From Synechococcus sp. CS-1330 (GTDB lineage: Bacteria; Cyanobacteriota; Cyanobacteriia; PCC-6307; Cyanobiaceae), in NCBI GenBank assembly GCA_025128025.1, contig JAHLYR010000046.1, positions 1 through 64,000 on the forward strand: DNA of 64,000 nt. Reading direction: 5' to 3'. Positions 3,029 through 39,562 of this stretch are shown piece after piece. Each line of letters begins with the position of its first letter. Positions within the stretch are counted from its first letter, which is position 1. A program made the translations under genes and the position numbers. The notes below the pieces were generated by a model. The model saw only the letters and a list, made by a program, of their open reading frames with translations, was not told the DNA's origin and did no database searches.

Positions 3029-3058
3029 GAAGAGGAGTGATCTGATGGGGGGTGGGCT

Positions 3059-12513: not shown

Positions 12514-12556
12514 GCGGCAGTACTAGGCACTTCGACTGGTATGGTTAAGAGGTCGA

Positions 12557-12633
<77 letters not shown>

Positions 12634-12639
12634 CTTCCC

Positions 12640-12675
12640 AAAGCCCCGGCAGTCACCTGTCGGGGCTTTGTTGTT
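12640..12675 (+). terminator. intrinsic terminator after tRNA-fMet
   Basis: A nine-base stem AAAGCCCCG / CGGGGCTTT (12640-12648 with 12661-12669) is followed by a T-rich run, just downstream of the tRNA. It separates the tRNA from the GMC oxidoreductase gene. Confidence 0.8.
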
Positions 12676-12717
12676 TGAACGTTCACCTGCGCTGCCCCAG
12701 CGATCACCGCCCAGAAG

Positions 12718-14364: not shown

Positions 14365-14461
14365 ACCGGTCGCGATCCGGTGTCTATCGCCACAACCGGC
14401 TTGAGCAAGCCTGCTCACAATGGCAACGTCGACCTCCAAAAGGTCGGGCAAGGGAGACTCA

Positions 14462-14491
14462 GGCGGAGGTTGGCCCCTCCGCCTTTTTTTT
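14462..14491 (+). terminator. strong intrinsic terminator
   Basis: Perfect eight-base stem GGCGGAGG / CCTCCGCC (14462-14469 with 14476-14483) with a six-base loop and eight T residues. It ends transcription from the GMC oxidoreductase gene. The oppositely oriented DUF2811 gene ends just beyond it. Confidence 0.9.
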
Positions 14492-14518
14492 GTTAACCGG
14501 CCACCAGGTTTGAAAAAT

Positions 14519-14755
14519 TCAGCGGCGCAGGAATAGGCCGTTGAGGTAGTACTGGCTCACCCCCTGATCGGCGCAGCCGTGCTGAAACAGAAAGCTGGAA
14601 AGCGCCGAGGAGATCAAGCGGTATTGATCCCACTGAGGGTGGCTGCGCAGGAACTCGCGCATGCCATCGAACAACACCTCTGGCACCTCAGCCTCCAGGC
14701 TGATGCTGCCGGCTTCTGCCTCCACTAAACCCTCTGCGCAGCTGGGCTGCTCCAT
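14519..14755 (-). CDS. DUF2811 domain protein
   Basis: A small soluble protein whose C-terminal 60 residues match DUF2811: ISLEAEVPEVLFDGMREFL, then WDQYRLISSALSSFLFQHG, then VSQYYLNGLF. The family is cyanobacterial and of unknown function. The open frame extends to a GTG at 14908; I favour the internal ATG at 14755 (78 residues) because the domain begins about 15 residues later, but none of the candidate starts has a clear ribosome-binding site. Confidence 0.75.
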   Translation of the reverse strand: MEQPSCAEGLVEAEAGSISLEAEVPEVLFDGMREFLRSHPQWDQYRLISSALSSFLFQHGCADQGVSQYYLNGLFLRR

Positions 14756-14989
14756 ACATCGTTGGAGATGACTGCGCTCAGCTGCCATTAGGAAACAAGA
14801 GGTGGGGGTGCCTAAGTAGGCCACATCGCTGCCAGGTCCGTCAAAGCCCGAAAGCCAGGGCGAAACCACACCGTTCTCAGCTGAGATTGCCTGTGCCAGC
14901 GGCTCCACAAGGGCTCAGCGAAGATTTGCAAAGCCTGCATGGGCGGCAGCTGCCGGTGCTGTCAAGGCCAGACTGAACAAAAGCAGTTA

Positions 14990-25198: not shown

Positions 25199-25774
25199 GT
25201 GCTGGTGCACGGGCTGCTCGACAGCCCCGCCGTTTTCAATGCGCTTAAGCGCTGCCTAGGCGAGCAGCGCCAACCGCTGTTAATCCCCGAGCTACCGCTG
25301 CGGTTTGGCCTAACCCCCGTCCCCGAGGCGGCCGAACTACTCGGTGGCCATATCGAAGCGGCCTTCGGGCTGGAGCAACCCATTGATCTGCTGGGCTTCT
25401 CGATCGGCGGCGTAATCGCCCGCACCTGGATCCAGCTGCTGGGCGGCCACCGCCGCACCAGGCGCTTCATCAGCGTGGGGAGTCCGCAGCAAGGCACCCT
25501 CACCGCCCAACCCTGGCCGGGCCGCCTGCTGGCGGGAATCGCCGACCTCAAATCGGGTAGCCCCCTGCTCACCGAGCTCAACGGCAACCTCGAAGCCCTG
25601 GCCGGGATCGACTGCTGCAGCTTTTATTCGGCCATCGACCTAGCCGTGCTGCCCGGCTGGCGGGCCGTGCTGCCTGTCGGCCGCACCCAGATGCTGCCGG
25701 TGTGGGCCCATCCCCAGCTGCTGCGCGCTCCCCAATCGGTGCAGCTACTGGCCCAGGAGCTGCTGCGGCCCTGA
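25199..25774 (+). CDS. alpha/beta hydrolase, lipase-like
   Basis: A 191-residue alpha/beta hydrolase similar to bacterial triacylglycerol lipases and cutinase-like esterases. It has LVLVHGLLDSPAVF at the N-terminus (oxyanion HG) and the nucleophile elbow GFSIGG. The catalytic Asp and His are less certain; a His lies in PVWAHPQLL. The GTG at 25199 is chosen, though the frame is open back to 25163. Its TGA overlaps the next gene's ATG, so the hydrolase and the CrtO-like acyltransferase are translationally coupled. Confidence 0.8.
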   Translation: MLVHGLLDSPAVFNALKRCLGEQRQPLLIPELPLRFGLTPVPEAAELLGGHIEAAFGLEQPIDLLGFSIGGVIARTWIQLLGGHRRTRRFISVGSPQQGTLTAQPWPGRLLAGIADLKSGSPLLTELNGNLEALAGIDCCSFYSAIDLAVLPGWRAVLPVGRTQMLPVWAHPQLLRAPQSVQLLAQELLRP

Positions 25775-26244
25775 TGACAAACCTTTCTCCGCTGATGGCA
25801 GCCACCTCCAGCGCCCTGGGCTGGCTGCTCTGGAGCCTGCTCGTGGGCTCCCTGGCCAACCGGCTGCCAGCCGCTTGGTTGGAGCGGGAGCACTGGTTTA
25901 TGCGGCGGCCATGGAGCGAAAGCCGGCAGGGATTCGAGAACCGGCTGGCGATCCGCAGCTGGAAGCCCTGGCTACCCGATGCCGGCCAAAGCCTCCCCCA
26001 CGGGATCGCCAAGGCCGCCCTGGTGGGCCGCGAGAGCATCAAGCTGGAGAGGCTGGTGCTGGAAACCCGCCGGGCCGAGCTGGTGCATCTGGCCCTGTGG
26101 CTGTTCTGGACCATCACGCCCCTCTGGCTACCGCCGGCGGGGGTGCTGATCAACCTCGCCTTTGCTACCGCCTTCAACCTGCCCTGCCTGTGGGTGCAGC
26201 GCTACAACCGCCTGCGACTGCAACGCCTGCTGGGCAAAAGCTGA
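25774..26244 (+). CDS. CrtO-like glycosyl carotenoid acyltransferase (PF18927-like)
   Basis: A 156-residue membrane protein similar to Staphylococcus CrtO, the glycosyl-4,4'-diaponeurosporenoate acyltransferase that finishes staphyloxanthin. Matching features are WFMRRPWSESRQGFENRLAIRSWKPWLP, RRAELVHLALW, and the terminal NLPCLWVQRYNRLRLQRL. Hydrophobic segments lie near residues 10-28 and 105-130. The ATG overlaps the hydrolase stop (TGATG); a longer ORF from 25702 is a shadow. Substrate is not proven. A CrtQ-like glycosyltransferase lies 9.7 kb away. Confidence 0.75.
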   Translation: MTNLSPLMAATSSALGWLLWSLLVGSLANRLPAAWLEREHWFMRRPWSESRQGFENRLAIRSWKPWLPDAGQSLPHGIAKAALVGRESIKLERLVLETRRAELVHLALWLFWTITPLWLPPAGVLINLAFATAFNLPCLWVQRYNRLRLQRLLGKS

Positions 26245-28425
26245 TCAGGGGCCCAGATCTTTTGCCTCGCAATTGATCTCCAGCAGCACCCCCCCATCTT
26301 CACTGTGTTGGCCAACCCGCAGGCGATGGCAACCCGCCTCCAGCCAAAAGTGGCTGGAAACTTCATCGAAATAGGCCAGTTGCCGCAGCGGAATCAGCAG
26401 CTGAAGCCGGCGGCGGTCGCCTGGCCCCAGCGCCGCCCGAGCGAAGCCCACCAGGCTGCGCCGAGGCCGCTCCAGCACTAAACCGGGCGGTTCGGCGTAC
26501 ACCTGCACCACAACCTCACTGGCCAGCAGGCCGGCATTTTGGGCAGTTACGGCCAGTCGAATTTGATCTGGCTGCAGCTCGGCCTCCGCCTGGCTGAGGC
26601 GCAGCTCTGCGTAGGAGAGCCCAAAGCCGAAGGGGAAGGCGGCCGGATTGCCGTCTCGCTGCAGGCGGCGGTAGCCGTGCCAGAGGTCGTAGCGCACTTG
26701 GGCAGCCCGGGGCTCGAAACCAGGCAGGTGCTCGGCGCTGGTGGGAATGGCGAAGGGCAGGCGCCCGGAGGGCGACACCGCACCGAACACCACATCGGCC
26801 AGGGCCTCGCCGCCCCGCTCGCCCGGGTACCAGAGCAGCAGGATTGCCGGCACAGCCTGGCGCCAGGCCTCCATCAGGATCGCGCCGCCGCCCATCAATA
26901 CCACCACCGTGCGGGGGTTTGCCGCCAGCACGGCCTCGATCAGGGCCACCTGCTCAGCGGGCAGCTCCAGGTTGGTGCGGTCGCCGGCGGCGAAATCGCC
27001 CCCCTGACGGGCCGAGCCGTAGCTGGTGATGGCGGCAATGGCCCGGGCCACCGGCGGCCAGCAGCGCCATAGCAGGGGATGGGGGGGCGGTATCTGGCGC
27101 AGGATCGGCGCGATGTCGCCGGGATGGATGTGCTCCCCCTCCAGGCGCCAGTCGAGGCCCAGTACCAGCAGGGCCGCCTCACAGCTGGCCGCCAGGGCAG
27201 TTGCCTCAGCCAGGCGCTCACCGCTGGCGTAACGCACAGTCCCCGGCGCAGCCGCTGCCTGGAGCCCCTGCAAGGGGGTAACCACCACGCCGGGTTCTGG
27301 CCGGGTGTCGGAGGAGCCGCGATCACCCAGGTTGGCGATGGCGGCCAGGCTGCCGATCACCGCCAGCGAGCGGGCCGGATCCAGGGGCAACAGGGGGGGG
27401 CCAGGGGGGAAGGCGTCGTTTTGAAGCAGCACGATCGACTTGGTGGCCGCCTCCCGGGCCAGGGCCCGGTGCTCGGCGCAGCCGCGCAGGCTGGTGGGAT
27501 AGGAACCCTGCGGCACGGCGAGCTGCGCCCGCAACTGGCGCAGCACGGCGTCATCCAAGCGCTGCTGCGGCAGCCGACCATCAGCAACGGCAGCAGCCAG
27601 GCAACCGGCAAAGATCATGCGGAAGGGCATCTCCAGGTCCTGACCGGCCCGCAGCGCCGCCACGCCATCGCGCACCCCGAAGATGAAATCGGTCACCACG
27701 AAGCCCCTGAATCCCCAGCGCTGCTTGAGGATTTCGTTGAGCAGCGCGGGGTGCTGGCCGCACCACTCGCCATTCACCTGGTTGTAGGCGCTCATAACCG
27801 AGCCCGCCCCGGCCTCTACGCAGGCTCGGAAGTGAGGCAGGTAAAGCTCGTGCAGCACCCGCTGACTCACCTGCACGTCCACCAGGAAGCGGGAGCTATC
27901 GATCGAATTGAGGGCGAAATGCTTGACGCAAGCCACGGCGTGGCGCTGGATGCCGCGGGTCATGGCCGCCCCCAGGGCCCCAAGCAGCACCGGATCTTCG
28001 CCGTAGGTCTCCTGGGCCCGGCCCCAGCCGGGGTGGCGCAAGAGGTTTACGCAAACCGCCGCCAGCCAGTTGGCCTCGAAGCTGCGGGCCTCGCGGGCCA
28101 TAGCCTCACCTATCCGCTCCTCCAGATCCACGTCCCAGCAGGCACCGCGGGCAATCGGCGGAGGGAAGGTAGTAGCTCCGCCCTGGAGCACCACCCCCCG
28201 CGGGCCATCAACAAACTGCAACCCAGCTAGCCCCAGGCGCGGCAATACCCCCGCTGGCCAGGGGTGCAGGTGGGAGGCATCGCGGCTGGCGATATCGACC
28301 ATGCCTGGCCAAAAGTCGGTATCGCCCTCCAGCAGGGCCAGCTTCTCGGCAAGGCTGAGCTGGGCCAGCAGCTCTTGGGCCCGGCGCTCAATCGACTGCT
28401 GGTGAGTCTCTGGTGGCGCCGGCAT
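26245..28425 (-). CDS. glycoside hydrolase family 3 (beta-glucosidase-like)
   Basis: A 726-residue GH3 enzyme. The N-terminal barrel has VDGPRGV, WGRAQETYGEDP, CVKHFALNS, and the catalytic Asp in GFVVTDF (about residue 246). The second domain carries LGLDWRLEGEH, the GGAILME region and GERGGEALADVVFG, with a fibronectin-III-like C-terminus. No signal peptide is seen, so it is probably cytoplasmic, hydrolysing beta-glucosides or beta-xylosides. It converges on the acyltransferase gene, with the stops directly abutting. Confidence 0.93.
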   Translation of the reverse strand: MPAPPETHQQSIERRAQELLAQLSLAEKLALLEGDTDFWPGMVDIASRDASHLHPWPAGVLPRLGLAGLQFVDGPRGVVLQGGATTFPPPIARGACWDVDLEERIGEAMAREARSFEANWLAAVCVNLLRHPGWGRAQETYGEDPVLLGALGAAMTRGIQRHAVACVKHFALNSIDSSRFLVDVQVSQRVLHELYLPHFRACVEAGAGSVMSAYNQVNGEWCGQHPALLNEILKQRWGFRGFVVTDFIFGVRDGVAALRAGQDLEMPFRMIFAGCLAAAVADGRLPQQRLDDAVLRQLRAQLAVPQGSYPTSLRGCAEHRALAREAATKSIVLLQNDAFPPGPPLLPLDPARSLAVIGSLAAIANLGDRGSSDTRPEPGVVVTPLQGLQAAAAPGTVRYASGERLAEATALAASCEAALLVLGLDWRLEGEHIHPGDIAPILRQIPPPHPLLWRCWPPVARAIAAITSYGSARQGGDFAAGDRTNLELPAEQVALIEAVLAANPRTVVVLMGGGAILMEAWRQAVPAILLLWYPGERGGEALADVVFGAVSPSGRLPFAIPTSAEHLPGFEPRAAQVRYDLWHGYRRLQRDGNPAAFPFGFGLSYAELRLSQAEAELQPDQIRLAVTAQNAGLLASEVVVQVYAEPPGLVLERPRRSLVGFARAALGPGDRRRLQLLIPLRQLAYFDEVSSHFWLEAGCHRLRVGQHSEDGGVLLEINCEAKDLGP

Positions 28426-28454
28426 GGCCTCTTCCCCAGCGGCATAAAAGCTAG

Positions 28455-28482
28455 GAAGCCCGGAGCGGGAGCCCCGGGCTTC
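28455..28482. repeat. hairpin ahead of the GH3 gene
   Basis: Nine-base inverted repeat GAAGCCCGG / CCGGGCTTC (28455-28463 with 28474-28482), 29 bases upstream of the GH3 ATG. On the minus strand it is followed by CTTTTATG, so it could act as an attenuator-like hairpin in the GH3 leader or as a terminator for upstream transcription. Confidence 0.5.
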
Positions 28483-28499
28483 TGTTGACCCAGCTGTGG

Positions 28500-28942
28500 T
28501 GCCTGCCCGGAGGGGTGGGGCGCGGCTGGGCGCAAGTTAGTTAGCAATCAGATCGTGAGATCTGGGTGACTTCAGTTATACTGAGGAGCTGCTGACGCAA
28601 GCACCTGGGGCCAGGTGACTAGTGGGACGTCTCGATTAATCCGGGGCACCTAGGGCGGCGCGGTGGAGGCTTTTAAGCCAAGAGACGTCAGAGATCCGTC
28701 GAGAGTGTTGGAGCAGGGGCCGGATCGTCAGCGCGCTCCTGGCAAATGCTCAGGGGGGGTGTCTTCCATCAGTGGAGCCTCCGAATCCCGATGTCCACAC
28801 GATCTCTCCGCCAAGCCAAAAGGGCAACCATCCACAGCACCGCCGCAATGGCTCTTCACCCGCGGAAATCAGACTTCATGAAGGCCGCTTCACATCTGAG
28901 GCTGGATAGGGCCCAGGATTTCGATCAACTACTTCGGCAACC
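28500..28942 (+). ncRNA. candidate structured non-coding RNA or long leader
   Basis: About 440 bases without a convincing gene but rich in pairing. A TATACT -10-like box is near 28576. GACGTCTC at 28626-28633 pairs exactly with GAGACGTC at 28682-28689 and encloses a GGCTT-TT-AAGCC hairpin (28668-28679), and GGAGC/GCTCC pairs follow. It could be a free small RNA or the 5' leader of the cupin gene at 28943. I could not match it to 6S RNA, tmRNA, SRP RNA or RNase P. ORFs across it have unlikely composition. Confidence 0.35.
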
Positions 28943-29869
28943 ATGAAGAGGAAATCCAGGCTGGGGCTGCTGGCCCTGGCGTTCTTGGCGGCTTGGGCTA
29001 CTGGCATGGGGATGGGAAATACCCGCGCCGATGAGGGCCCCAGCGCTGCTGCCCAAGGCGTGAAGGTGGAAACCCTGAGCCGCAGCGATCGCTCCTGGAA
29101 TGGGGACCTATTGCCCAAGCTCAACGATGTCCAAGCCGAAGTAACCGTGCTGCGCATCACTGTGCCTGCCGGGGTAACCCTGCCTCGCCATTTCCATCCA
29201 GTGATCAATGCCGGCGTGTTGCTGCAGGGAAGGTTGCGAGTCGAAAGCGACGATGGCGCTAGCCAATCCCTGCAACCAGGCCAGGCAATAATCGAAACGG
29301 TAAACAAAGTGCACCGAGGCGTCAGCCTGGGTCCTGAGCCAGCGGTGGTCGTGGTGGTTTACGTAGCGCCAAAGGGCAGCCCCATCACGGTGCCAGCGGC
29401 CTCTGCCCCCAACGGGAAGCCCAACAAGGCGGCGGACGAGATTGTCACCGTGCGGCCGCTGACAACCAGCAGCAGCAAGCAAAGGCTCAAGCAGTTTGTG
29501 GGCATTTCCGGCGCCAACAGCGGCGCCCGCGGCCTGTCGATGAACAGGGTGGTGATTCCCCCTGGTGGGCAGGCCGCAGCGCACCAGCATGTGGGATCGG
29601 AATCGGCGATATTTTTGCTGGCTGGCCGCGTTAAAACCTTCTACGGGCCGTGCCTGGAGAGGTCGGTGATCAACCAAACAGGCGACTTCATATTCATCCC
29701 AGCGGGCGTTATCCACATGCCGGTGAACCTCAGCGCCAATGAGGAGGCCATTGCAATCGTGGCCCGCAACGATGCCAACGAGCAAGAACACGTGGAGCTG
29801 CACGCCCCTCCAGGCAAGGCCGAGGGTGCACCGGGTGCACCAACATGTGCAGCACCAGGCCACAAATAG
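28943..29869 (+). CDS. exported protein with two cupin domains
   Basis: A 308-residue protein. The N-terminus MKRKSRLGLLALAFLAAWATG is a signal peptide, with cleavage probably near ADEG. Two cupin barrels follow: the first with RITVPAGVTLPRHFHPVINAGVLLQGRL (His-x-His metal ligands), the second with NRVVIPPGGQAAAHQHVGSESAIFLLAGRV. It is therefore probably a periplasmic metal-dependent or sugar-binding cupin; the reaction is unknown. The C-terminal 25 residues are Pro/Gly/Ala-rich. The composition is GC-rich, and the AT-rich tract begins just after it. Confidence 0.8.
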   Translation: MKRKSRLGLLALAFLAAWATGMGMGNTRADEGPSAAAQGVKVETLSRSDRSWNGDLLPKLNDVQAEVTVLRITVPAGVTLPRHFHPVINAGVLLQGRLRVESDDGASQSLQPGQAIIETVNKVHRGVSLGPEPAVVVVVYVAPKGSPITVPAASAPNGKPNKAADEIVTVRPLTTSSSKQRLKQFVGISGANSGARGLSMNRVVIPPGGQAAAHQHVGSESAIFLLAGRVKTFYGPCLERSVINQTGDFIFIPAGVIHMPVNLSANEEAIAIVARNDANEQEHVELHAPPGKAEGAPGAPTCAAPGHK

Positions 29870-30134
29870 CAGCCGAAGCGGGAGATTTGCTGCTATTAAG
29901 CGATGATCTGCGAGACGTAGTGACAGCCATCGAGCCATCAAAGGCCACGAAGAGCAAGATCCATCACAACATCTTCTGGTCCTTAGTATGCGACAGGTTC
30001 GACATGCCGATCGCACCCCTTGCCTGGCTAAACCTAATTCCGTGAGCGCAGAAGTGCCAAAACATGGAGTGGATCAGTTACCATGATTGACGGGCGCAAC
30101 CGAATAAGCGCTTTACAAGGTGGCAAATGGGAAT
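29870..30134. other. intergenic, start of AT-rich tract
   Basis: Composition changes here from the GC-rich core to the AT-richer tract that continues to the tRNA-Lys gene. No gene, repeat or att-like copy of tRNA sequence was recognised. Confidence 0.4.
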
Positions 30135-30233
30135 CTAGACGAGCGGCGTAAGCCCTCTGGTCAATAGATAAACTCCTACGTACAAGAATAGAAAAATCAA
30201 AAGCAAGCCACCAACAAATAATTTCCCATCCAT
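30135..30233 (-). CDS. candidate 32-residue membrane micropeptide
   Basis: The minus strand encodes a 32-residue peptide, MDGKLFVGGLLLIFLF at the start and LLTRGLTPLV at the end: one strongly hydrophobic helix with charged ends, typical of single-span membrane peptides. The Shine-Dalgarno is weak. The overlapping 75-residue ORF in another frame (30034-30261) has less protein-like composition. It lies at the 3' end of a run of minus-strand small membrane and stress genes. Confidence 0.4.
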   Translation of the reverse strand: MDGKLFVGGLLLIFLFLYVGVYLLTRGLTPLV

Positions 30234-30520
30234 CGGTAGTAGCTGATTTAGTTTCCGCCATCCTATCTAAGCAAAACCGACCGCATCAGCTCTTTGGAGC
30301 AGGACGATAAGGATTGTGAGGTAATGCTTGTCAATAAGCACAGGCTTTTGCTAGGCGTCTTCGCAATAGACGGTTGGGACGAATGGGATACGGGAAGTGA
30401 GGTGCAGCAAATCGCTACCGCGGTAACGGCATGAGTCGGGGCGGCCAGCAAAGGAGGCTTTTAAGAATAGGACAAACGACATCCAAGCTGAACAACACCT
30501 TGATCAAGCAAACGCCCTAA

Positions 30521-30772
30521 TCACAGAGCAGTAGCTTCCTCTAATCGGTTAAAGTCAGATTGATGACTGGCAAGCCAATTGAGCTCAGCCGGATCAATGA
30601 TGCCAGTAATAAGTGCTTCAAGAAAAAGTGTTCCAACCAGCATGACAAAGTGGCGGCATACCGCAAAAACAACTAAAATCAATATCGCCAGGCTAGAGCA
30701 CAAAAGAAGCAATTGCAGCACATTTACAGCTTGATCAATAACGAACCGGCAGCGACAGCCCTGGGCAGACAA
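30521..30772 (-). CDS. small membrane protein, hypothetical
   Basis: An 83-residue protein with one long or two short membrane segments (VLQLLLLCSSLAILILVVFAV, then MLVGTLFLEALI) and a soluble C-terminus containing NWLASHQSDFNRLEE. The start is TTG and uncertain. I do not recognise a family. It lies in the minus-strand run with the DUF302 and CsbD genes and probably shares their regulation. Confidence 0.5.
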   Translation of the reverse strand: MSAQGCRCRFVIDQAVNVLQLLLLCSSLAILILVVFAVCRHFVMLVGTLFLEALITGIIDPAELNWLASHQSDFNRLEEATAL

Positions 30773-30851
30773 GAACTAGCGCCTAGGCGAAGGCGAGGCA
30801 AAAGTTTATCAAACTTTATTGACAAGCGGGACAGCTGACAAAGGAGAATCA

Positions 30852-30965
30852 ATGAAAAGGCAACGCATTAACCAATGCAAACTGGGCGCAAAGGGCAACA
30901 ACTCACCAAACCATGTCGCACCAATTATCAGAAATACCAATGCACAAGTATCAAGCGTGTCCTGA
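30852..30965 (+). CDS. doubtful small ORF behind a good ribosome-binding site
   Basis: An ATG preceded by AAAGGAG at correct spacing opens a 37-residue frame beginning MKRQRINQCKLGAKGNN. The 14 bases CTGACAAAGGAGAA before it recur exactly ahead of the gene at 37318. The peptide has no recognisable family and overlaps the end of the opposite gene, so coding is uncertain. Confidence 0.2.
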   Translation: MKRQRINQCKLGAKGNNSPNHVAPIIRNTNAQVSSVS

Positions 30966-31352
30966 CTTACATTTAATCTCCCGCTCTAGGGAGTTTAGCA
31001 TCGTAGCCACATCCAAATCGTCCCTTGTAAGATGCCCGACAATACGGTTAAGGATATCAGTCTCGATACGGCCACTACCCACACGCCCTAAGTAGAACAA
31101 GCAATTGCGGCCGTGTCTGCCACTTAGAACCTGGGCCAGAGTGAGCCATTCCAGGGCTTTTTGGCAGGTCTGGAACTGCGAAATCTTATGCATATGGTGC
31201 TCGCCTGAAAGTACCCAGTCGCGAAGCTCAACCAGAAATAAATGTAATTCCCATGGATCTATCTCAGAATGATGTATTGGCATAGAGTGAATCGGAGCAA
31301 GGAACAGTGGATCAACAATCGCTGCATTTGGCAGTAGGAGACGAGGCTTCAT
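30951..31352 (-). CDS. hypothetical protein
   Basis: A 133-residue soluble protein with no family I recognise. It contains DPWELHLFLVELRDWVLSGEHH, CQKALEWLTLAQVLSGRHGR, and a C-terminal helix LTRDDLDVATMLNSLEREIK. The ATG lies within the last 41 bases of the DUF302 gene, so translation is probably coupled to it. Composition is AT-rich like its neighbours. Confidence 0.6.
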   Translation of the reverse strand: MKPRLLLPNAAIVDPLFLAPIHSMPIHHSEIDPWELHLFLVELRDWVLSGEHHMHKISQFQTCQKALEWLTLAQVLSGRHGRNCLFYLGRVGSGRIETDILNRIVGHLTRDDLDVATMLNSLEREIKCKSGHA

Positions 31353-31728
31353 GAATCATGTCCATCATGGTTGACTCAACCTCCAGCGCAACTTTAATAA
31401 GAGCTGGAGTATCCGAAAGATCCCGAAACAAGTCGGCAGGTCGGATCATGGCGATCTTGGTCTGTCCGACTTCCGTAAACACAGAGATCCGGCAGGGAAG
31501 TGCCATGCACAAGGACATGTCGGTTTCGAGCACCAAAGCAGCTTGCTGTGGATTGCACACCTCAAAAACACTGCAGTTCTCAGAAAACTGAATATTTTTA
31601 GAACGCAGGGTAGCCGCAAGGTCATGAATAGCTAGAATTCCAAAGTTATGCGCCTCCACAGCAGCATTAAGATCAAAACAGGTTTCTTCAAAAGTTTTAG
31701 CCGAATCGACGACAACAAAGTGCTTCAT
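31312..31728 (-). CDS. DUF302 domain protein
   Basis: A 138-residue protein matching DUF302: KHFVVVDSAKTFEETCFDLNAAVEAHNFGILAIHDLAATLRSKN at the start, FEVCNPQQAALVLETDMSLCMALPCRISVF in the middle. Family members are small single-domain proteins found in many bacteria and thought to bind small molecules; the role is unknown. The ATG at 31728 is chosen; the frame opens 12 codons earlier. It lies just downstream of a CsbD gene and overlaps the next gene. Confidence 0.8.
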   Translation of the reverse strand: MKHFVVVDSAKTFEETCFDLNAAVEAHNFGILAIHDLAATLRSKNIQFSENCSVFEVCNPQQAALVLETDMSLCMALPCRISVFTEVGQTKIAMIRPADLFRDLSDTPALIKVALEVESTMMDMIHEASSPTAKCSDC

Positions 31729-31789
31729 GGTGCAATCACTAGATAAGTTAAAAACTAATATCAAGTGGAGCTATTGATACTGGATCAGC

Positions 31790-32116
31790 TCAGCGCAACC
31801 CGGCCATATCTTTTACATCTTCGACGGTATTACGGACTTTGGCTTCGGCCTGCTTGGCCTTGCCAGCAATTAGATCTCCCCGGTTGCCAGTGACGTTGCC
31901 AATCGATTCCTGAGTTTTGCCCTCGAATTCCTTAGCGTCAGCCTTGACGCGGCCTGATGTAACTGCCAATGGCTCGGGAAATGTGCTGAAGAAGAAGCAA
32001 TTTGAAGCCTGCGCAGGAGAGCTGAAGATCGGCAAACCAAATACAATCAACAAGCTAAAGACGGCACAAACACATGTCGCAACTAGCTCGCGCAAAATAC
32101 GAATTTGAAGATACAT
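31790..32116 (-). CDS. CsbD family protein with N-terminal membrane or signal segment
   Basis: The C-terminal 65 residues match the CsbD stress-response family: SGRVKADAKEFEGKTQESIGNVTGNRGDLIAGKAKQAEAKVRNTVEDVKDM. Unlike most CsbD proteins it has a hydrophobic N-terminus (VATCVCAVFSLLIVFGLPIFS then PAQAS), a signal peptide or anchor, which would place it outside the cytoplasm. The ATG at 32116 is preferred over a TTG at 32149. It is the middle gene of the minus-strand small-protein cluster. Confidence 0.75.
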   Translation of the reverse strand: MYLQIRILRELVATCVCAVFSLLIVFGLPIFSSPAQASNCFFFSTFPEPLAVTSGRVKADAKEFEGKTQESIGNVTGNRGDLIAGKAKQAEAKVRNTVEDVKDMAGLR

Positions 32117-32266
32117 AGTGGGAATAGAGATGGGAAAAAGGCACAACATTTGGCAAAACTATGCCATGCAAACATTATTTCCAGGAATTGCCGAGATTCA
32201 GCAAGTAATCATCATCAGACTTAAATCCTAATTACCTTGTGAAAACAAAGTAATTAGAAGATCTAT

Positions 32267-32431
32267 TCATATTACGCGGCCCCGTCCCGTAAGAAAAGAA
32301 ACTAAGGCAAGAACTAGAAACACAAAAAAGAGGACCTGGGCGATACTCGCAGCGGATCCGGCGATGCCGCCAAAACCGAGGACTGCAGCAATAATCGCAA
32401 TGACAAAAAAAGTTACGGCATAACTAAGCAT
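32267..32431 (-). CDS. DUF1328 family membrane protein (YtjA-like)
   Basis: Found by reading the minus strand: a 54-residue protein starting [20 protein letters not shown], then [20 protein letters not shown], matching the DUF1328/YtjA family of two-helix membrane proteins. An AGGAG ribosome-binding site lies seven bases upstream of the ATG. Relatives are induced by envelope and osmotic stress; the function is unknown. It begins ten bases after the CsbD gene upstream, so the two are likely co-transcribed. Confidence 0.9.
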
Positions 32432-32441
32432 GGTAGGACTC

Positions 32442-32627
32442 CTAAGGGGTGTTGATCATTTCGGCAATCTCCTGCTGGTTCTTACCAAGCTTTTTCTGGA
32501 GATGACCTAGAAGTTCCTCTTCTTGACCCGCGGCATAGTTCAGGTCGTCGTCAGTAAGATTGGCAAACTTCTGCCTGAGCTTTCCTATCAGCTCATGCCA
32601 TTCACCTTTGAATTGGAGCTTATTCAC
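32442..32627 (-). CDS. CsbD family protein
   Basis: A 61-residue CsbD/UPF0337 protein: [21 protein letters not shown], then [26 protein letters not shown], the canonical helix pair. The GTG at 32627 aligns with the family N-terminus; the frame is open up to a GTG at 32711, adding 28 residues without similarity. CsbD proteins are small, soluble general-stress proteins. It appears to be the first gene of the run with DUF1328, CsbD and DUF302. Confidence 0.75.
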
Positions 32628-32970
32628 GATTAGGTCCGCGAGGTTCTGGATTCGATGACAAAGCGGATGGAGCAGCTGGATATCTACCAAAGCAGATCCA
32701 TTACTTGTCACACCATTGCTTGTCCAATGTCACTATGAACCTAAATTTGGCACTTAACTGCTGCAGATTTACAGGATATTTACGGCAACTCAAAGTCTTA
32801 ATACCGGCTACATTGAAAAGACTTGCCTAAGTATCAATAAATGATCTTCCATAGCACGTAAGCAGTCAAGCAAAAGGACCACATAGCAGCAGCCATGACT
32901 CATATCTGCACTATTTTCCTCAATCTCCCATGAAAATGCCTAAGTTAAAATTAGTTAGACAACTTCAATC

Positions 32971-33441
32971 ATGCGCCGAGATACTCAGTTTTGGATTGCA
33001 GGCATAGCAGTGGTTTCCGTGGGCGTAGCTACGCTCATATTTCTCAATCAGAAAGATCAAATAACCGAGCAAAGGCAGTCGATTGATCAGCAAACACTTG
33101 TAGCTGAGTTATTGAAAGAGCGCAGTGCGGAAGAGGTAAGATTTCGCCAACAGGAAGCAGCTATCGCGATGCAGCTCAAAGATCTAGATGCAGAACAAGC
33201 AAGGAATGCAGCATCGGCATCAGCTGATCGAGCTAGCATAGCCGCGTCTGAGAAGTCATCATTAGATCGTCAACGACTCGAAGCTAGGATTCAGGAACTT
33301 AAGACCCAACAATCTGAACGTGCTCGTCAATCAGATTGCACACTGAATCAGATGCGAACCAAGATAGCCGAAACAGCTCAAGACTATGGCCAAGTTAAGG
33401 CCTTGAAAGAACAATGGAATGCGAATTGTGCCAGTAGTTAG
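32971..33441 (+). CDS. membrane-anchored coiled-coil protein
   Basis: A 156-residue protein with an N-terminal membrane segment (FWIAGIAVVSVGVATLIFL, about residues 7-25) followed by a long charged helix rich in Glu, Gln, Ala and Arg (about 30-115) typical of a coiled coil. It ends in a short tail with Cys residues. It resembles general envelope spacer or partner proteins but matches no family I can name. The start region is AT-rich; no ribosome-binding site stands out. Confidence 0.65.
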   Translation: MRRDTQFWIAGIAVVSVGVATLIFLNQKDQITEQRQSIDQQTLVAELLKERSAEEVRFRQQEAAIAMQLKDLDAEQARNAASASADRASIAASEKSSLDRQRLEARIQELKTQQSERARQSDCTLNQMRTKIAETAQDYGQVKALKEQWNANCASS

Positions 33442-33689
33442 CTCATAAGCTTTTGCGCTTATTCAGGGGTCAGGACTAATGGAGCTCTGCTCACCCAAAG
33501 GAATCTGGTGCTTTAGGCTTAATCTATACTGGAGAATTCCGGCAGACATCGAGAGTCCCTGCAAAAAGAACATAAGCATGACTCTATCTCAGCTCTTCAA
33601 GCTTATATAATTTTGCCGCGGATCCGAGATGCTGGACTCTTAAAGCGTCAGAGCGGCACCTTCCTCGTAGGAGATCCAAGAGGAATACT

Positions 33690-35474
33690 TCATTGCGAAT
33701 AGATTAAGACACTATACGGAGCGATGGACAGCGATGCCTGGCATGGAAGTGTGTCATGGCTTGTCTCCACAGCGTTAATGTCGCCACTGGGATGGCCTTC
33801 AAACAGCTCGCTATAGCCATGCCAATCACTATTAAAGCGGAGTATCCATTTACCGCTGGCGGGTAGGCCTATGGTGTAATCATCTTGAGCTTGATTGGAG
33901 AAGTTGGCGATCACAACCACATCATCTGCTGGTCCACCTTGATCCCACCTGTGAAAGGCAAGAACCTTTCGCTCCTCATTAAGGTGATAGACCTGCGTGA
34001 ATTGCCCACAGAGTCCACGAGTGAAGCCTGCAATATTAAGGCGGAGATTGATCAAGTCGCGGTACATGCGAATGATGCCACGGAACTGATCCTGCTGGTG
34101 CCAATCAACCGGAACCGTATCGCGAAACCATTCGCCTTCAAGAAACTCCTGGCCCTGGAAAAGCATCGGAATCCCAGGGGCTGTAAACACCATCACAGCA
34201 GCCATAGTCGAACGCTTCTGTGCAAACCACCCCGTGGGATCATCTGGACTGACTTCCTGAGGGACTCTCGCCTGCCCATTGGCGACGTCGTCATGAGACT
34301 CGCTATAAATGACCCGATCAAACGCGTCGTCATTGTACCGATAAAGTATCGCATCACGAATGCGAGTTAATGAACGATTTTGATCGTCTGAAGTAATAAC
34401 AGCCTCACGTATAGGACGGACAAAGTGAGGGTCCCACTGCGAACCAAAACCCGCGCCGCCAGCCCCGACATCATTGGTAATCCATTCATTACTCTGTAAA
34501 TCTTCTGCAATTGTGATCTGATTGCCCAAATGGCTTGCGACCGTTTCATTAATAGCTTGCATCAGACTCCATCCGTCGGGAATTTCGGATGAGCCACTCT
34601 CACCAATATTGCGGATATAAAGAGTGCTATCAAAGCGAAGACCATCAATGCGATATTCATCAAGCCACATACGTACATTGTCGAGGATGTATTGACGAAC
34701 TTCGCCGCGCCCGTAATCTGGCCTGGTTTCACCCCAGGGGGTCACGGCGCGATTATCATTGTAAAAATATATCCCGCCTCTATTATTCTCCGACCAACCA
34801 TCAAACTGCCATAAGTCCAGATCACTGGGACCAAGGTGATTATAAACAACATCAAGGATTACGGCGATCCCTTCCTGATGAGCTCGCTTTATGAATCGCT
34901 TAAGACCTATTGATCCACCATAGTCAGAATCGACCGCAAATAGATGAGATGGGTTGTAGCCCCACGAACGCATTCCAGCAAACTGACCAACTGGCATGAT
35001 CTGAATGGCGTTGATGCCAAGCTGCTTGAGATGGCCTAGGCGGGCCGTAATGGAAATGAACTTTCCAGGTCGGCACGGATCTTCATCATTGAATGTACCC
35101 ACATGCAATTCATAGATCACCAGCTGGTTCCAGCTGGGCATGCAGAACGCATCATCCTCCCAGTTGAAGTTAGGGTCATGAACAATGGCGTTACCAACCG
35201 AACTAGTAACTTCACGCGCATAGGGATCAATACGTGTAAATACACCTCCTTGTGTTGTCAATTGGTATTTGTACTGATCGCCAATACTGACACCTTTGAT
35301 CTCTGTGTACCAATTACCATGCTGATCTGATTGCATCGGATGAACCAGTCCATCCCAATCGTTAAATGTACCAATTACAGATACTTGATTTGCATGCGGC
35401 GCCCACACGCGAAAAGCCACCCTGCCTTCGCTGATGATGGGCCCCATACCGTGAGAGGCTGCCTTCTCAATCAC
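33690..35474 (-). CDS. GH13 alpha-glucan branching enzyme-like protein
   Basis: A 594-residue GH13 enzyme with an N-terminal CBM48 domain (about 18-100: FRVWAPHANQVSVIGTFNDWDG). The catalytic barrel has region I DVVYNH (about 208), the nucleophile Asp in GLRFDST (about 282), the acid Glu in TIAEDL (about 324) and the third Asp in SESHDD (about 395). This is branching-enzyme-like, but it is shorter than normal GlgB and unusually AT-rich. Reaction is inferred; a trehalose-forming or debranching role is possible. It sits alone in the AT-rich tract. Confidence 0.85.
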   Translation of the reverse strand: MIEKAASHGMGPIISEGRVAFRVWAPHANQVSVIGTFNDWDGLVHPMQSDQHGNWYTEIKGVSIGDQYKYQLTTQGGVFTRIDPYAREVTSSVGNAIVHDPNFNWEDDAFCMPSWNQLVIYELHVGTFNDEDPCRPGKFISITARLGHLKQLGINAIQIMPVGQFAGMRSWGYNPSHLFAVDSDYGGSIGLKRFIKRAHQEGIAVILDVVYNHLGPSDLDLWQFDGWSENNRGGIYFYNDNRAVTPWGETRPDYGRGEVRQYILDNVRMWLDEYRIDGLRFDSTLYIRNIGESGSSEIPDGWSLMQAINETVASHLGNQITIAEDLQSNEWITNDVGAGGAGFGSQWDPHFVRPIREAVITSDDQNRSLTRIRDAILYRYNDDAFDRVIYSESHDDVANGQARVPQEVSPDDPTGWFAQKRSTMAAVMVFTAPGIPMLFQGQEFLEGEWFRDTVPVDWHQQDQFRGIIRMYRDLINLRLNIAGFTRGLCGQFTQVYHLNEERKVLAFHRWDQGGPADDVVVIANFSNQAQDDYTIGLPASGKWILRFNSDWHGYSELFEGHPSGDINAVETSHDTLPCQASLSIAPYSVLIYSQ

Positions 35475-35492
35475 GACAAAAGTAGCGGCTAG

Positions 35493-35627
35493 CTATCTAA
35501 TCCTATCCAAATCATGTGCAGCAAAATGCAGCAGATATGCAAACCATGCAAACAGCTCTTGATTTGTAAATCTATCGCCGCCACGGCAGAAGCTATGAGC
35601 ATCAAGATCGATACTGCTATTTAACAT
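35493..35627 (-). CDS. possible small ORF, doubtful
   Basis: A 44-residue frame with a plausible C-terminus (RFTNQELFAWFAYLLHFAAHDLDRIR) inside a longer 78-residue GTG ORF reaching 35729. Nothing is recognised, and the rest of the 420-base gap between the GH13 and glycosyltransferase genes shows no other gene. Confidence 0.2.
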   Translation of the reverse strand: MLNSSIDLDAHSFCRGGDRFTNQELFAWFAYLLHFAAHDLDRIR

Positions 35628-35896
35628 CTCATTAGCAAGCAAATATGGATTGATACACCTCCTGCTTTTCACCAGCCGACAAGAGCTGCAATCTCGAACC
35701 TGGATTAGAACGATCAAGGTACCCCCCACCTTGGCTCACACCAATACGCCTAGAACCTATGCACGCTGAAATCCCTGCATGGCGTTCACAGCAAAAAGGA
35801 GGTAGACCCGCCCAGGCCAATCTGCTGCAAATCTGAAGTAATGATGGATAGTTCCAATCCCTCTCCCTAACCTGAAGATTCTCCTCAGGTCACTGA

Positions 35897-36997
35897 GTGT
35901 TAATTGGATGGCTGGAGGTATCGCTGCTGGTGCGCTGGCTGCTGGGCTGGATTCTGGCCTTGAGTCTGCCTTCCCTTCCGGCCTGCATACCGCTGCAGCA
36001 GCGGACGATGTCAGTGCTGATCCCCGCCCGTAACGAGGCTGCCACCCTGCCCCATCTGCTGGCAGCCCTCAACCGCCAGATTCTCAGGCCCGATGAAGTG
36101 ATCGTGGTTGACGATCACTCCAGCGACGGCACCGCCGCCATCGCCCGCCAGTGCGCTGACACGCTTGGTATCAAAGTTGTCCAGCCGCCGCCTCTTCCCG
36201 AAGGCTGGTGCGGCAAGACCTGGGCTCTGCACCACGGTGTGCAGGCCAGCAGGGGCGACGTGTTGGTCTTTCTCGACGCCGACACCGAGCCTGCCCCACA
36301 GTTCCTGCAGCGGCTTCTCGCCCAACACGAGCAGCAAGGAGGACTGGTGTCGGTACAGCCATATCACCGCACCGAAAAGCCTTACGAGCAGCTCTCTCTG
36401 CTCTTCAGCCTGGTGGGGCTGATGGCGGTAAGGCTGGGTCCAGGGTGTGGGGTCGCCTTCGGGCCGGCGATGGTGAGCAGTCGGGCCGACTATCTGCGCG
36501 CCGGCGGGCATGAGGCAGTGGCTGACAAAGTAGTTGAGGATTGGTTCCTGGCCCATCTCTACGAAAAGCTCGGCCTACCCGTGAGCGCCTGGCTCGGCAG
36601 CGATTCGATCGCTTATCGCATGTATCCCGGCGGGTTGGCCGACATGGTGGTCGGCTTCAATAAGAACTTCGCGACCGCCGCCGGAGAAGTTCGCTGGCCC
36701 TGGATGTTGGCGATGCTGCTATGGCTGTCGGGTCTCTTCTGGGCCGCCTGGTGCCTGCCTGCCGCCTTGCTGGGCTGGCCTCTGGTGGGGACCCACGCGA
36801 TTGGCCCAAACGCTTTGATCTATGGCGCCTTTGCCGTGCAGTTGCTGCTGCTCAGCCGCCGGGTAGGGCGCTTCCATTGGATCAACCTGATCTTTCCGAT
36901 CCCGGTGCTGTTTTTTCTAGGGGTGTTCATCCTCGCTATTTTTAAGCTCAAGCAAGGGCATGTCGAGTGGAAGGGAAGGCGATTCAAGACCCGCTAA
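35897..36997 (+). CDS. GT2 glycosyltransferase, CrtQ-like
   Basis: A 366-residue family 2 glycosyltransferase resembling Staphylococcus CrtQ, the enzyme that glucosylates diaponeurosporenoate. Matching parts are VLIPARNEAATLPHLL, a DAD metal-binding motif in VFLDADTEP (about residue 127), GGLVSVQPYHRTEKPYEQ, and the C-terminal GHVEWKGRRF. Membrane segments lie at about 8-28 and three in the last 100 residues. It starts with GTG. It is GC-rich, unlike everything around it in the AT-rich tract. Carotenoid is a likely acceptor, but this is inference. Confidence 0.8.
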   Translation: MLIGWLEVSLLVRWLLGWILALSLPSLPACIPLQQRTMSVLIPARNEAATLPHLLAALNRQILRPDEVIVVDDHSSDGTAAIARQCADTLGIKVVQPPPLPEGWCGKTWALHHGVQASRGDVLVFLDADTEPAPQFLQRLLAQHEQQGGLVSVQPYHRTEKPYEQLSLLFSLVGLMAVRLGPGCGVAFGPAMVSSRADYLRAGGHEAVADKVVEDWFLAHLYEKLGLPVSAWLGSDSIAYRMYPGGLADMVVGFNKNFATAAGEVRWPWMLAMLLWLSGLFWAAWCLPAALLGWPLVGTHAIGPNALIYGAFAVQLLLLSRRVGRFHWINLIFPIPVLFFLGVFILAIFKLKQGHVEWKGRRFKTR

Positions 36998-37317
36998 ATA
37001 CCCTCGGGAGGCGTGCTTTACGGGACGGTTCAGCCTGGCGGGGCTGCTGAGCCAGCTCGTGCAAGGTCGCTATGGCTGCTCGGTTTGTGGGTCGTCCAGA
37101 GAGAGCCGATCACACTTCTGCTGCCGATCTGCTGCTAAAGCTGACTCCCAGTAATTTTATGACTATCATAGAAAAAATGGGCAATTTTTATGTTCAACAA
37201 CATGACTTGACAAGGGAAGAATTCTAGCGAGGATGCGCGCCCAGGCATCAAGACAATTTTAGCCAATGCTTTGGCTAGCAACACAAGTTTTAAACTGACA
37301 AAGGAGAAAGCTACGCC
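36998..37317. other. intergenic leader of the Thivi_2564-type gene
   Basis: About 320 bases, GC-rich then AT-rich. A TTGACA-like box is near 37206 but no matching -10 is at proper spacing. AAAGGAG lies 11 bases ahead of the ATG at 37318. An overlapping 64-residue ORF (36960-37154) is not convincing. Confidence 0.4.
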
Positions 37318-37509
37318 ATGTCTCTCGTATCACTTGTCATCACCCTCATTGTAGTTGGAGTACTGCTATGGCTCATCAATAACTACATACCGATGGACGG
37401 CAAGATTAAGCGCATCTTAAATATGACTGTCGTCGTCGTGGTCGTTCTCTGGATTCTCAACACAATGGGGTTGATTGATTCCCTCCGCGGCATACGTGTT
37501 GGCAGGTAA
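37318..37509 (+). CDS. Thivi_2564 family membrane protein
   Basis: A 63-residue protein with two membrane helices, matching the Thivi_2564 family: SLVITLIVVGVLLWLINNYIPMDGKIKRILN, then VVVVLWILNTMGL. The NNYIPMDGKIKRI loop between helices is the hallmark. It has a strong ribosome-binding site (AAAGGAG). Family function is unknown; relatives often sit among stress genes, as here. Confidence 0.85.
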   Translation: MSLVSLVITLIVVGVLLWLINNYIPMDGKIKRILNMTVVVVVVLWILNTMGLIDSLRGIRVGR

Positions 37510-37911
37510 TTATCTCCTTTAGCCGCGGATTGATTTTTTCAAGTGCTGCCAATTTCTACTGTCGGCGACAGTGGGTCGGACGGCGCTATAAGCCGTGTTC
37601 ATAAAGCCCCCTCCACTGCGCCAGGCCGGCAACGAAGAGTTGTGCCTGGCAGCTTAGTGACCAACCACCGCACTTGGACTTTTGGCATCTTGCCTGCATA
37701 GCCATTTTGACTAAGAGCTAATACGGGGAAAGCCGGGCAATATGCGGCACTGTGCAGCAGATTTCAGAAATCCACAAAAACTTGAGACCTAGGCGGCATA
37801 AATACTCCAATTAAGTGCAGATTCCTCTATGGATAAACGAATATGATATTTGCAGCACCCGCAAGAGTGCCATCTCTGCTTAATTTTGCCCCGAATCGAT
37901 AAGGTACTGCA
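37510..37911. other. intergenic with small hairpin
   Basis: About 400 bases without a gene. A seven-base inverted repeat GCCAGGC / GCCTGGC (37620-37626 with 37644-37650) is the only structure noted, with no T-run after it. Confidence 0.35.
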
Positions 37912-38181
37912 ATGAACGATAAACTACGAATTCTACAGCGCCAACCGCGCAGGATCTCAATAACATTAAGCCACAATGTCCATGAGGCTTTGATAAAAAG
38001 GTCAGACGAAGAGGGCCGCTCTGTTTCCAACCTTTGTGCATTCCTGCTTGAAGATGCTTTAAAGGATCAGAGAGATCTGCTAGGCATACACGGCCGGGAT
38101 CATACAGTGGATGGATTGGTCGGTAAAAAGTTGGTACTTAACGGTGATTCCATGTCCAATGGATTTTCTCGACGACCGTAG
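37912..38181 (+). CDS. ribbon-helix-helix (CopG-like) protein
   Basis: An 89-residue protein whose first 50 residues match a CopG/Arc-type ribbon-helix-helix: RRISITLSHNVHEALIKRSDEEGRSVSNLCAFLLEDALKD. This fold dimerises and binds operator DNA; the C-terminal 35 residues are unstructured. No toxin gene adjoins it, so it is more likely a solitary regulator than an antitoxin. It converges on the sigma factor gene. Confidence 0.75.
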   Translation: MNDKLRILQRQPRRISITLSHNVHEALIKRSDEEGRSVSNLCAFLLEDALKDQRDLLGIHGRDHTVDGLVGKKLVLNGDSMSNGFSRRP

Positions 38182-38208
38182 AGCATGAGGCAATTCCAGC
38201 CAAGCATC

Positions 38209-39051
38209 TTATGCAGGGTGCAAGGCTGGCTCAATTGCCCTCCTTAGCTTCTTAAGCGCTCGCCGCTCTACAGACTGAATATGGTGCTTTGTCTTCCCCG
38301 TTGATTTTGCAATATCGACAAAAGCCATTCGCTTTTCAACATAAAACCTATAACTTATCACTTCTTGCTCTTCAGGAGATAGCAATCTCAGGTATTGCTG
38401 AATCCATAAATAGTCGTCCCTGACTTGATTTTCACAACATCCCGGAATCGAATCTTTTAGGGTGAGCTCACCGGTATCAATGCCACCAATGCATTGGTCC
38501 AATGAAATCATCTTATTGTAGAAGCTTAGCAGCCTCGCGCGTTCGACTTTTCGAATCTGCAAGGCTCCCTCCCCTTCCAATCTATCAACATTCTTACAAC
38601 CACTCTCCATATTTTTTAGTCGGTCCAATTTTGATTTTAGAGCCACCAAAGAACGTGGAACTTTAATAGCGCAATCATTGTCTTGAATGAATCTAATGGC
38701 AGATTGCTTAATCCACCAATACCCATAGGTTGAAAAGCGATAGCCCCTGGTCGGATCAAATTTTTCAACGGCTCGCATAAGGCCCACATTACCTGCCTGA
38801 ACAAGATCCATCATGTCAATTGAGTTACCCTTAATCCGAAATCTATATTGCTTGACAACGCTAACAACAAGCCTGAGGTTACCATTCACCATGCGGACAA
38901 AAGCACGGCGCCCTCTTCGCTGTTTGACGCTCGCGATGTTCTCGAAATCGCGCCACTCTCTAATCATTCGCCCAAGCTCAAGCTCTTCCTCTTCCCGCAA
39001 CAGCGGAATGCCGCCAATCGCCTGTAGGTAATCACTTAAGCAATCAGCCAT
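38209..39051 (-). CDS. divergent sigma-70 family RNA polymerase sigma factor
   Basis: A 280-residue sigma factor of the group 2/3 type. It begins with part of region 1.2 (DYLQAIGGIPLLREEEELELGRMI) and has region 2 (NLRLVVSVVKQYRF, then DLVQAGNVGLMRAVEKFDPTRGYRFSTYGYWWIKQ). Region 3 is short and poorly conserved. Region 4 ends with a helix-turn-helix (DIAKSTGKTKHHIQSVERRALKKLR). Such factors usually serve stress or niche-specific promoters. It is AT-rich and within the tract that ends at tRNA-Lys. Confidence 0.9.
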   Translation of the reverse strand: MADCLSDYLQAIGGIPLLREEEELELGRMIREWRDFENIASVKQRRGRRAFVRMVNGNLRLVVSVVKQYRFRIKGNSIDMMDLVQAGNVGLMRAVEKFDPTRGYRFSTYGYWWIKQSAIRFIQDNDCAIKVPRSLVALKSKLDRLKNMESGCKNVDRLEGEGALQIRKVERARLLSFYNKMISLDQCIGGIDTGELTLKDSIPGCCENQVRDDYLWIQQYLRLLSPEEQEVISYRFYVEKRMAFVDIAKSTGKTKHHIQSVERRALKKLRRAIEPALHPA

Positions 39052-39490
39052 GGAGACCAGCGAAGCAACTCTGGCTATATTCCTCCACAGGAGTCGGCTT
39101 TAAAATTAAATCAGCGCATATGCTTATTTAGTGCCGCGTTGTGCAGCCGCATGCAGCATTAGATTGACAAGCTGATGCGGGCAACATAGGAGTACCTTTC
39201 GCAGCAATACGGCCATTCAATCCCTTAAAATTTCGCGGATAAATATAGCAAATAAAATCCACTAAAAATTATCATCGGACGAATTAGGCGAGGGCCAAAG
39301 GCCAGAGCTGGAGGACCTCAAGATCAGCTACCGCATGTCCGGCAACATCGCTGCAGCAGGAATTTTCATCACTCACCAGAATAAACATCAATTTGAGGAG
39401 GAGCATTCAATTTCACCTCAGCACATTTGATATAACTGCAACAATCAACCGAAAAATATTTATGGACCTGGATTCAGGGCCTGAAAATAA
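39052..39490. other. intergenic between sigma factor and tRNA-Lys
   Basis: About 440 mostly AT-rich bases. A GC-richer patch (about 39290-39362) reads on the plus strand as GQRPELEDLKISYRMSGNIAAA without a start, possibly a gene remnant. A small TTCAGGGCCTGAA palindrome is next to the tRNA (39471-39483). No terminator or att repeat was seen. Confidence 0.4.
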
Positions 39491-39562
39491 TGGGTCGCCT
39501 GAGATTCGAACTCAGGACCAATCGGTTAAAAGCCGAGTGCTCTACCGCTGAGCTAGCGACCC
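39491..39562 (-). tRNA. tRNA-Lys (TTT)
   Basis: 72 bases fold as a complete cloverleaf: acceptor GGGTCGC / GCGACCC, anticodon TTT in CTTTTAA, T arm CTGAG TTCGAAT CTCAG. The CCA end is not encoded. The 3' end faces the AT-rich tract to the left, the usual geometry for an island inserted at a tRNA. Confidence 0.95.

Follow-up and report, generated by a model that had tools for sequence, protein, structure and literature searches.

The stretch of DNA analysed here, hereafter the window, comprises the first 64,000 nucleotides of contig JAHLYR010000046.1 of Synechococcus sp. CS-1330 (assembly GCA_025128025.1). It contains two genes that an initial annotation, made from the sequence alone, had likened to the last two enzymes of staphyloxanthin biosynthesis, an acyltransferase (CrtO) and a glucosyltransferase (CrtQ), and had regarded as a tailoring pair for a carotenoid. 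Both open reading frames are present, as are the protein endings quoted in support of the resemblance, NLPCLWVQRYNRLRLQRLLGKS and VEWKGRRFKTR. The idea of a pair has held up, but a lipase-like hydrolase and a GH3 enzyme on either side of the acyltransferase gene had been overlooked. In many picocyanobacteria the glycosyltransferase (GT), CrtO, the GH3 enzyme and a second copy of the hydrolase are co-inherited as a set, which we call the cassette and which is represented in the window by the following genes:

25199..25774, forward strand: alpha/beta hydrolase, lipase/thioesterase-like, the cassette copy and proposed deacylase (PF02089, 31.4 bits against a cut-off of 26.8)
25774..26244, forward strand: CrtO-type (PF18927) membrane acyltransferase, whose ATG overlaps the stop codon of the hydrolase gene (TGATG)
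26245..28425, reverse strand: GH3 beta-glucosidase-like enzyme, convergent with the acyltransferase gene
35897..36997, forward strand: GT2 membrane glycosyltransferase, copy A (CrtQ-like)

The acyltransferase is a protein of 156 amino acids that passes the Pfam gathering score for PF18927 ('CrtO') by a wide margin (86.2 bits against 27.3; E 2.8e-24), as the profile search suggested with the initial annotation was meant to establish. Nine columns are invariant in an alignment of 50 rows, comprising the window protein and 49 of the CrtO loci described below (W63, K64, E97, R100, E102, H105, N135, P137 and Q142), and 11 further columns are nearly so. Because these nine columns are shared and both genes occur in the same genomes, the resemblance is not a matter of chance. 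The predicted structure has a pLDDT of 88.7; none of its 41 matches among solved structures reached an E of 0.001 or better, and a profile search of structures returned receptor helices only (E 0.034 or worse).

The product of GT copy A has 366 amino acids and matches Glycos_transf_2 (PF00535) at 98.2 bits; the gene itself has 62% G+C. The two aspartates of its DxD motif, D127 and D129, belong to a group of 34 positions that are conserved in 97% or more of 85 aligned rows. Over 88-90% of its length it shares 30-33% identity with CrtQ-type proteins encoded on Staphylococcus plasmids, which bears out the proposed likeness to the staphyloxanthin glucosyltransferase. Its best plasmid match, from Picosynechococcus PCC 7003, is 58% identical and encoded by a gene that overlaps the PF18927 gene coming next. 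Two other identities were considered and rejected: HpnB, since the score lies below the NCBIfam cut-off (104.4 bits against 379.25), and orthology with CruG (NF045692), since the score is far below its cut-off (83.8 bits against 600) and CruF is absent. None of the NCBIfam models matched by copy A bears the name of staphylococcal CrtQ, so the label 'CrtQ-like' is based on pairwise similarity and on the pairing of the genes.

In the GH3 enzyme both GH3 domains and an Fn3-like domain score over their cut-offs (PF00933, PF01915 and PF14310, at 153.9, 138 and 53.4 bits). The hydrolase finds putative lipases and palmitoyl-protein thioesterase 2 in profile matches to the PDB, and its Foldseek matches are lipases, although the model is weak (pLDDT 67.7) and these serve only as backing for the sequence matches. 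Ser68, Asp147 and His171 are invariant in 26 rows.

The evidence for co-inheritance comes from three sets of genomes: 291 cyanobacteria, 161 Cyanobiaceae and 16 members of the window's genus. Among the 161 Cyanobiaceae, where up to 12 GT candidates were scored per genome, CrtO is found in 58, GT in 59 and both in 58, such that every CrtO-bearing genome carries GT; this is the co-occurrence across picocyanobacteria that had been proposed as a check. The only other genome with GT is a 340-contig assembly (G410) in which that gene is partial. PF18927 is over its cut-off in seven of the 291 cyanobacteria, and the same seven carry a GT of at least 58% identity, a tally that disregards a CrtO fragment of G276, which scores below the cut-off, and a GT of G047 with 35% identity. 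Within the window's genus, the same nine of 16 genomes carry both. The GH3 gene occurs in 57 of the 161 Cyanobiaceae, 56 of which belong to the 58 with CrtO and one to the 103 without it. Homologs of the hydrolase are widespread (137 of 161), but 54 of the 58 genomes with CrtO have two copies, as against just one of the 103 without it (G410), which means that the second copy travels with the cassette. Fisher P values for the co-occurrence counts (1.8e-43, 9.4e-40 and 8.4e-37) ignore relatedness; the presence of CrtO is nonetheless mixed inside five genera (g1, g9, g116, g125 and g129), and GT follows it there, G410 excepted.

Gene order mirrors these counts. GT lies within 400 bp of CrtO and on the same strand in 45 of the 58 Cyanobiaceae. 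We also assembled CrtO loci more widely, taking the best 80 of 206 (45 cyanobacterial and 35 non-cyanobacterial, with distant loci under-sampled); GT stands within 400 bp of CrtO in 37 of the 45 cyanobacterial loci, and 33 have the hydrolase and 30 GH3. The GH3 gene is convergent with CrtO and within 400 bp of it in 39 of the 58 Cyanobiaceae, and within 5 kb in seven more; 10 further CrtO genomes retain it even though it lies over 100 kb from CrtO or on a different contig. Both g8 genomes mapped have the order hydrolase-GT-CrtO followed by a convergent GH3 gene. The gene pairing is firmer than a note made from one sequence could show.

In the window, GT copy A lies apart from its partners, inside a variable region, which together with its surroundings contains these features:

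28900..39490: variable region abutting tRNA-Lys and holding GT copy A; absent from loci L096, L099 and L104, left end approximate
33690..35474, reverse strand: GlgB-like glucan-branching/amylase-type enzyme
39491..39562, reverse strand: tRNA-Lys(ttt), predicted with ARAGORN, the border of the variable region
41766-43295: crtH (TIGR02730, 917 bits against a cut-off of 587)

The window has approximately 10 kb extra between the GH3 side and tRNA-Lys in comparison with relatives of the same genus (L096, L099 and L104), which pass from about 0.5 kb beyond the GH3 gene straight into the tRNA gene with 64-101 bp between; the same tRNA gene stands at the border in these three and in L046. G+C content is 43-49% between 30 and 36 kb and 46-48% between 37 and 39 kb, whereas it is at least 60% from 3 to 30 kb. 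Besides GT, the region carries a cupin gene and a cargo of stress type: two CsbD-like genes, a DUF302 gene, a Thivi_2564-type membrane gene, an RHH gene, a separate sigma-70-like factor and the GlgB-like enzyme. The part containing the glycosyltransferase is shared by genomes G014 and G007. A site-specific integration repeat at tRNA-Lys was sought and rejected, as no sequence word of at least 12 bases was shared; no integrase was noticed in the region, though no search was aimed at integrases. It had been suggested that an AT-rich tract separated the members of a former cluster. The tract between the two genes is indeed AT-rich, but in relatives the region is missing altogether and a GT (copy B) is retained elsewhere, so the cassette is dispersed rather than split by an AT-rich insertion.

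Copy B lies on contig C14 of the window genome, beside the second hydrolase, and either copy could serve the single acyltransferase. All seven copy-B stretches mapped, that of the window genome included, contain a NifH/frxC-type homolog of the chlorophyll-reductase group, chlL by context. In the window genome (L010, 5805-8158) another GT2 gene, HpnB/CruG-like and below both cut-offs, lies near copy B with a fatty-acid-desaturase-family gene between them. The GlgB-like gene is loosely associated with the cassette; it occurs in 14 of the 161 Cyanobiaceae, all 14 CrtO-bearing, with two of the copies incomplete or broken. In L043, a g8 genome, it is near the cassette, and a transglutaminase-like gene, an N-formylglutamate amidohydrolase-like gene and a further open reading frame lie between the two (12351-14928).

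The initial annotation had also pointed to crtH. The gene is where it was said to be, but a pathway context for it does not follow. Among the seven other CrtO stretches from the genus, whose length is not always enough to judge, four (L046, L050, L052 and L056) have crtH within the 20 kb around CrtO; neither of the two g8 CrtO stretches has it. As a pathway partner crtH was rejected, since among the stretches mapped it is near CrtO in part of the window's genus only, and its position looks like background synteny.

The nature of the acceptor lipid is best approached through the relatives of CrtO. In a tree of the 50 aligned rows the cyanobacterial branch (support 100/99) groups with four actinobacterial sequences (98/97), of which L126 is sister to it (95/90). 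The L126 locus combines a GT2 gene with a polyprenyl synthase, a crtI-family gene over the TIGR02734 cut-off, a phytoene/squalene-synthase-family gene and FA_hydroxylase; L133 has a crtI-family gene over the same cut-off and a phytoene/squalene-synthase-family gene, while L109 (Nocardioides) has a crtI-family gene over that cut-off and a lycopene-cyclase match just below its own. No such carotenoid gene was present among the genes scanned at the fourth locus, L105 (Acidimicrobiia), where a protein of 906 amino acids with six neocarzinostatin-family stretches is encoded near the CrtO homolog (2785-5505). That three of the four nearest relatives stand in crtI clusters points to a C40 carotenoid. 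A CrtQ-type or window-GT-type glycosyltransferase is within 400 bp of CrtO in 26 of the 35 non-cyanobacterial loci, and genes like crtN, crtM or crtP are in the flanks of 21 (three of them staphylococcal), these having been sought by tblastn across all 80 loci with the staphylococcal genes and the window crtH as queries. Myxol, one of the substrates first suggested, is unlikely, because CruF (PF04240) is found in none of the 161 Cyanobiaceae (three of 14 control genomes were positive); this leaves zeaxanthin-type xanthophylls as the likely acceptors and our best guess. That the strain makes such xanthophylls is assumed from its genus (PMC7551005). According to PMC8502411, a glycosyltransferase from a Planococcus carotenoid cluster glucosylates a carotenoid hydroxyl.

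On balance, we lean towards the view that the product of the cassette is an acylated glycoside, with a xanthophyll as the probable acceptor, and that the hydrolase and the GH3 enzyme perhaps make this modification reversible. The membrane GT2 would glycosylate, probably with glucose, a lipid that bears a hydroxyl group; a C40 xanthophyll, for example zeaxanthin, is the most likely one. A fatty acid would then be esterified to the sugar by the PF18927 acyltransferase, which is small and helical and has invariant W-K, E-R-E-H and N-P-Q residues. These two reactions would correspond to the ones that complete staphyloxanthin synthesis. The lipase-like hydrolase would remove the acyl group and the glucosidase-like GH3 enzyme the sugar; co-inheritance and family chemistry suggest that these two enzymes could reverse both steps. 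What the data show is the identity of the genes, their pairing and co-inheritance, the conservation of residues of a catalytic type and the position of CrtO among relatives from carotenoid clusters; substrate, sugar, reversibility and any protective role are what we infer. A more specific proposal, which we offer tentatively, is that picocyanobacteria with the cassette make fatty-acylated xanthophyll glycosides whose level is set reversibly by the dedicated lipase copy and GH3, moving free xanthophyll in and out of a membrane-anchored glycolipid form.

Several observations weigh against this scheme, and some of them would suit a cassette with the same chemistry and another acceptor, for instance a glyceroglycolipid, a fatty alcohol or a quinol. 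Beyond crtH (three loci, all in the window's genus), tblastn found no crtN/M/P-like gene in the 45 cyanobacterial CrtO loci, though crt genes of cyanobacteria are usually scattered. Such genes are likewise missing from the flanks of 14 of the 35 non-cyanobacterial loci. In Vescimonas fastidiosa, a gut bacterium of the Clostridia (L061, 4875-6433), the neighbour of a strong PF18927 gene (107.5 bits) encodes an MGDG_synth/GT28-type glycosyltransferase, and none of the genes within 10 kb is annotated as a carotenoid gene, so the acyltransferase family has other settings too and may also serve glyceroglycolipids. A further point for another acceptor is the fatty-acid-desaturase-family gene near copy B at all seven copy-B loci mapped. 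Set against these points is the grouping of the cyanobacterial CrtO branch with actinobacterial sequences from crtI clusters, and we regard a non-carotenoid acceptor as possible, if rather improbable. The preferred scheme has further difficulties of its own. A quick GT tree, the only one to include non-cyanobacterial rows, leaves the cyanobacterial branch standing alone, with deep forks supported at 25 and its nearest outside relatives unresolved. Three points argue against a need for the second hydrolase copy: four CrtO genomes have a single copy; the window hydrolase lacks an in-frame ATG near its start; and the cassette hydrolase of G015 is shortened to a frame of 119 amino acids without the Asp147/His171 region (L046, 8837-9196), its second copy being full length. 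Finally, neither the open-licence PMC papers searched nor the excerpted parts of two reviews (PMC11857680, PMC3131562) contain an acylated carotenoid glycoside from cyanobacteria.

Two other explanations concern single members of the set. GT copy A might be a mobile paralog that serves another function, in which case copy B would be the real partner of the acyltransferase. Copy A does sit in a variable region, copy B alone (68-71% identical to copy A, beside the second hydrolase, elsewhere in the genome) accompanies CrtO in six of the nine genomes in the genus that carry the cassette, and a genome of another genus (G369) has an extra gene whose protein is 91% identical to copy A besides its own cassette GT. 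We nevertheless think this explanation unlikely, given that copy A is the sole close GT homolog in G007 and G014, both of which have CrtO, that it keeps the strongly conserved positions, and that in a careful tree of cyanobacterial sequences (minus L102, a copy of L041) it branches inside a group of GTs mostly adjoining CrtO (97/89). The window hydrolase groups with hydrolases from largely the same loci. Alternatively, the GH3 enzyme and hydrolase could be catabolic, acting on glucosides and esters from outside, and neighbours of the pair only because gained genes cluster. The relatives of GH3 with solved structures, mostly beta-glucosidases but also named xylosidases, would fit such a role, as would its exceptions, two genomes with the pair and no GH3 gene (G346 and G381) and one with GH3 and no pair (G339). 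Clustering of gained genes does not account well for a GH3 gene that follows CrtO even into genomes where it lies far off, nor for the distribution of the second hydrolase copy, and the GH3 protein has no obvious signal peptide when its start is inspected by eye; a catabolic role is thus conceivable to us but doubtful.

If xanthophylls are indeed the substrate, an undescribed membrane pigment would be present in roughly one in three of the Cyanobiaceae sampled (58 of 161). It could be of a type new to these phototrophs, and the pairing of make-and-break enzymes would allow the turnover of a carotenoid glycolipid to be studied in a phototroph. The open-licence papers searched contain no report of the GT and CrtO pair in cyanobacteria. 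The carotenoid glycosides named for cyanobacteria in the excerpted parts of the two reviews are those of myxol and oscillol (PMC11857680, PMC3131562), whose route includes the CruF step that the search of the 161 Cyanobiaceae did not find. A table of high-performance liquid chromatography results in PMC7551005 lists for two Cyanobium strains carotenoid peaks before zeaxanthin that are named only as derivatives, with peaks 7 and 9 in none of the other five strains. These peaks are a lead only, since they could be due to other xanthophylls, and later elution would be quite plausible for an acylated glycoside.

The closest analogue of the cassette is the staphyloxanthin pair CrtQ and CrtO, encoded in the crtOPQMN operons of Staphylococcus, where GT2 and PF18927 genes likewise share a cluster and invariant motifs; staphylococcal CrtO is 30-33% identical to that of the Picosynechococcus PCC 7003 cassette. 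The staphylococcal cluster differs in containing crtM, crtN and crtP, of which tblastn found nothing in the 45 cyanobacterial loci but the three crtH genes, and its acceptor is a C30 acid. The cyanobacterial cassette presumably acts on a C40 xanthophyll instead and has the hydrolase and GH3 genes in addition. The shared names are misleading, since crtO in cyanobacteria usually denotes a ketolase, which we take, along with the cyanobacterial crtQ desaturase, to be unrelated to the window genes. The latter is zeta-carotene desaturase (PMC11857680). The actinobacterial carotenoid clusters (L109, L126 and L133) also have GT2 adjoining PF18927 and include the nearest CrtO relatives among the 50 rows, but they are linked to crtI-family genes, unlike the cyanobacterial cassette; no hydrolase or GH3 homolog was detected in the 35 non-cyanobacterial loci. 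CruG, the myxol 2'-O-glycosyltransferase, is a cyanobacterial carotenoid glycosyltransferase of the same GT2 family, to which copy A has the weak match given above, and it differs in having CruF as its partner. The type of product proposed here is that of thermozeaxanthin in Thermus, a zeaxanthin glucoside fatty-acid ester associated with CruC and CruD (PMC4021367), but the acyltransferase there goes by the name CruD.

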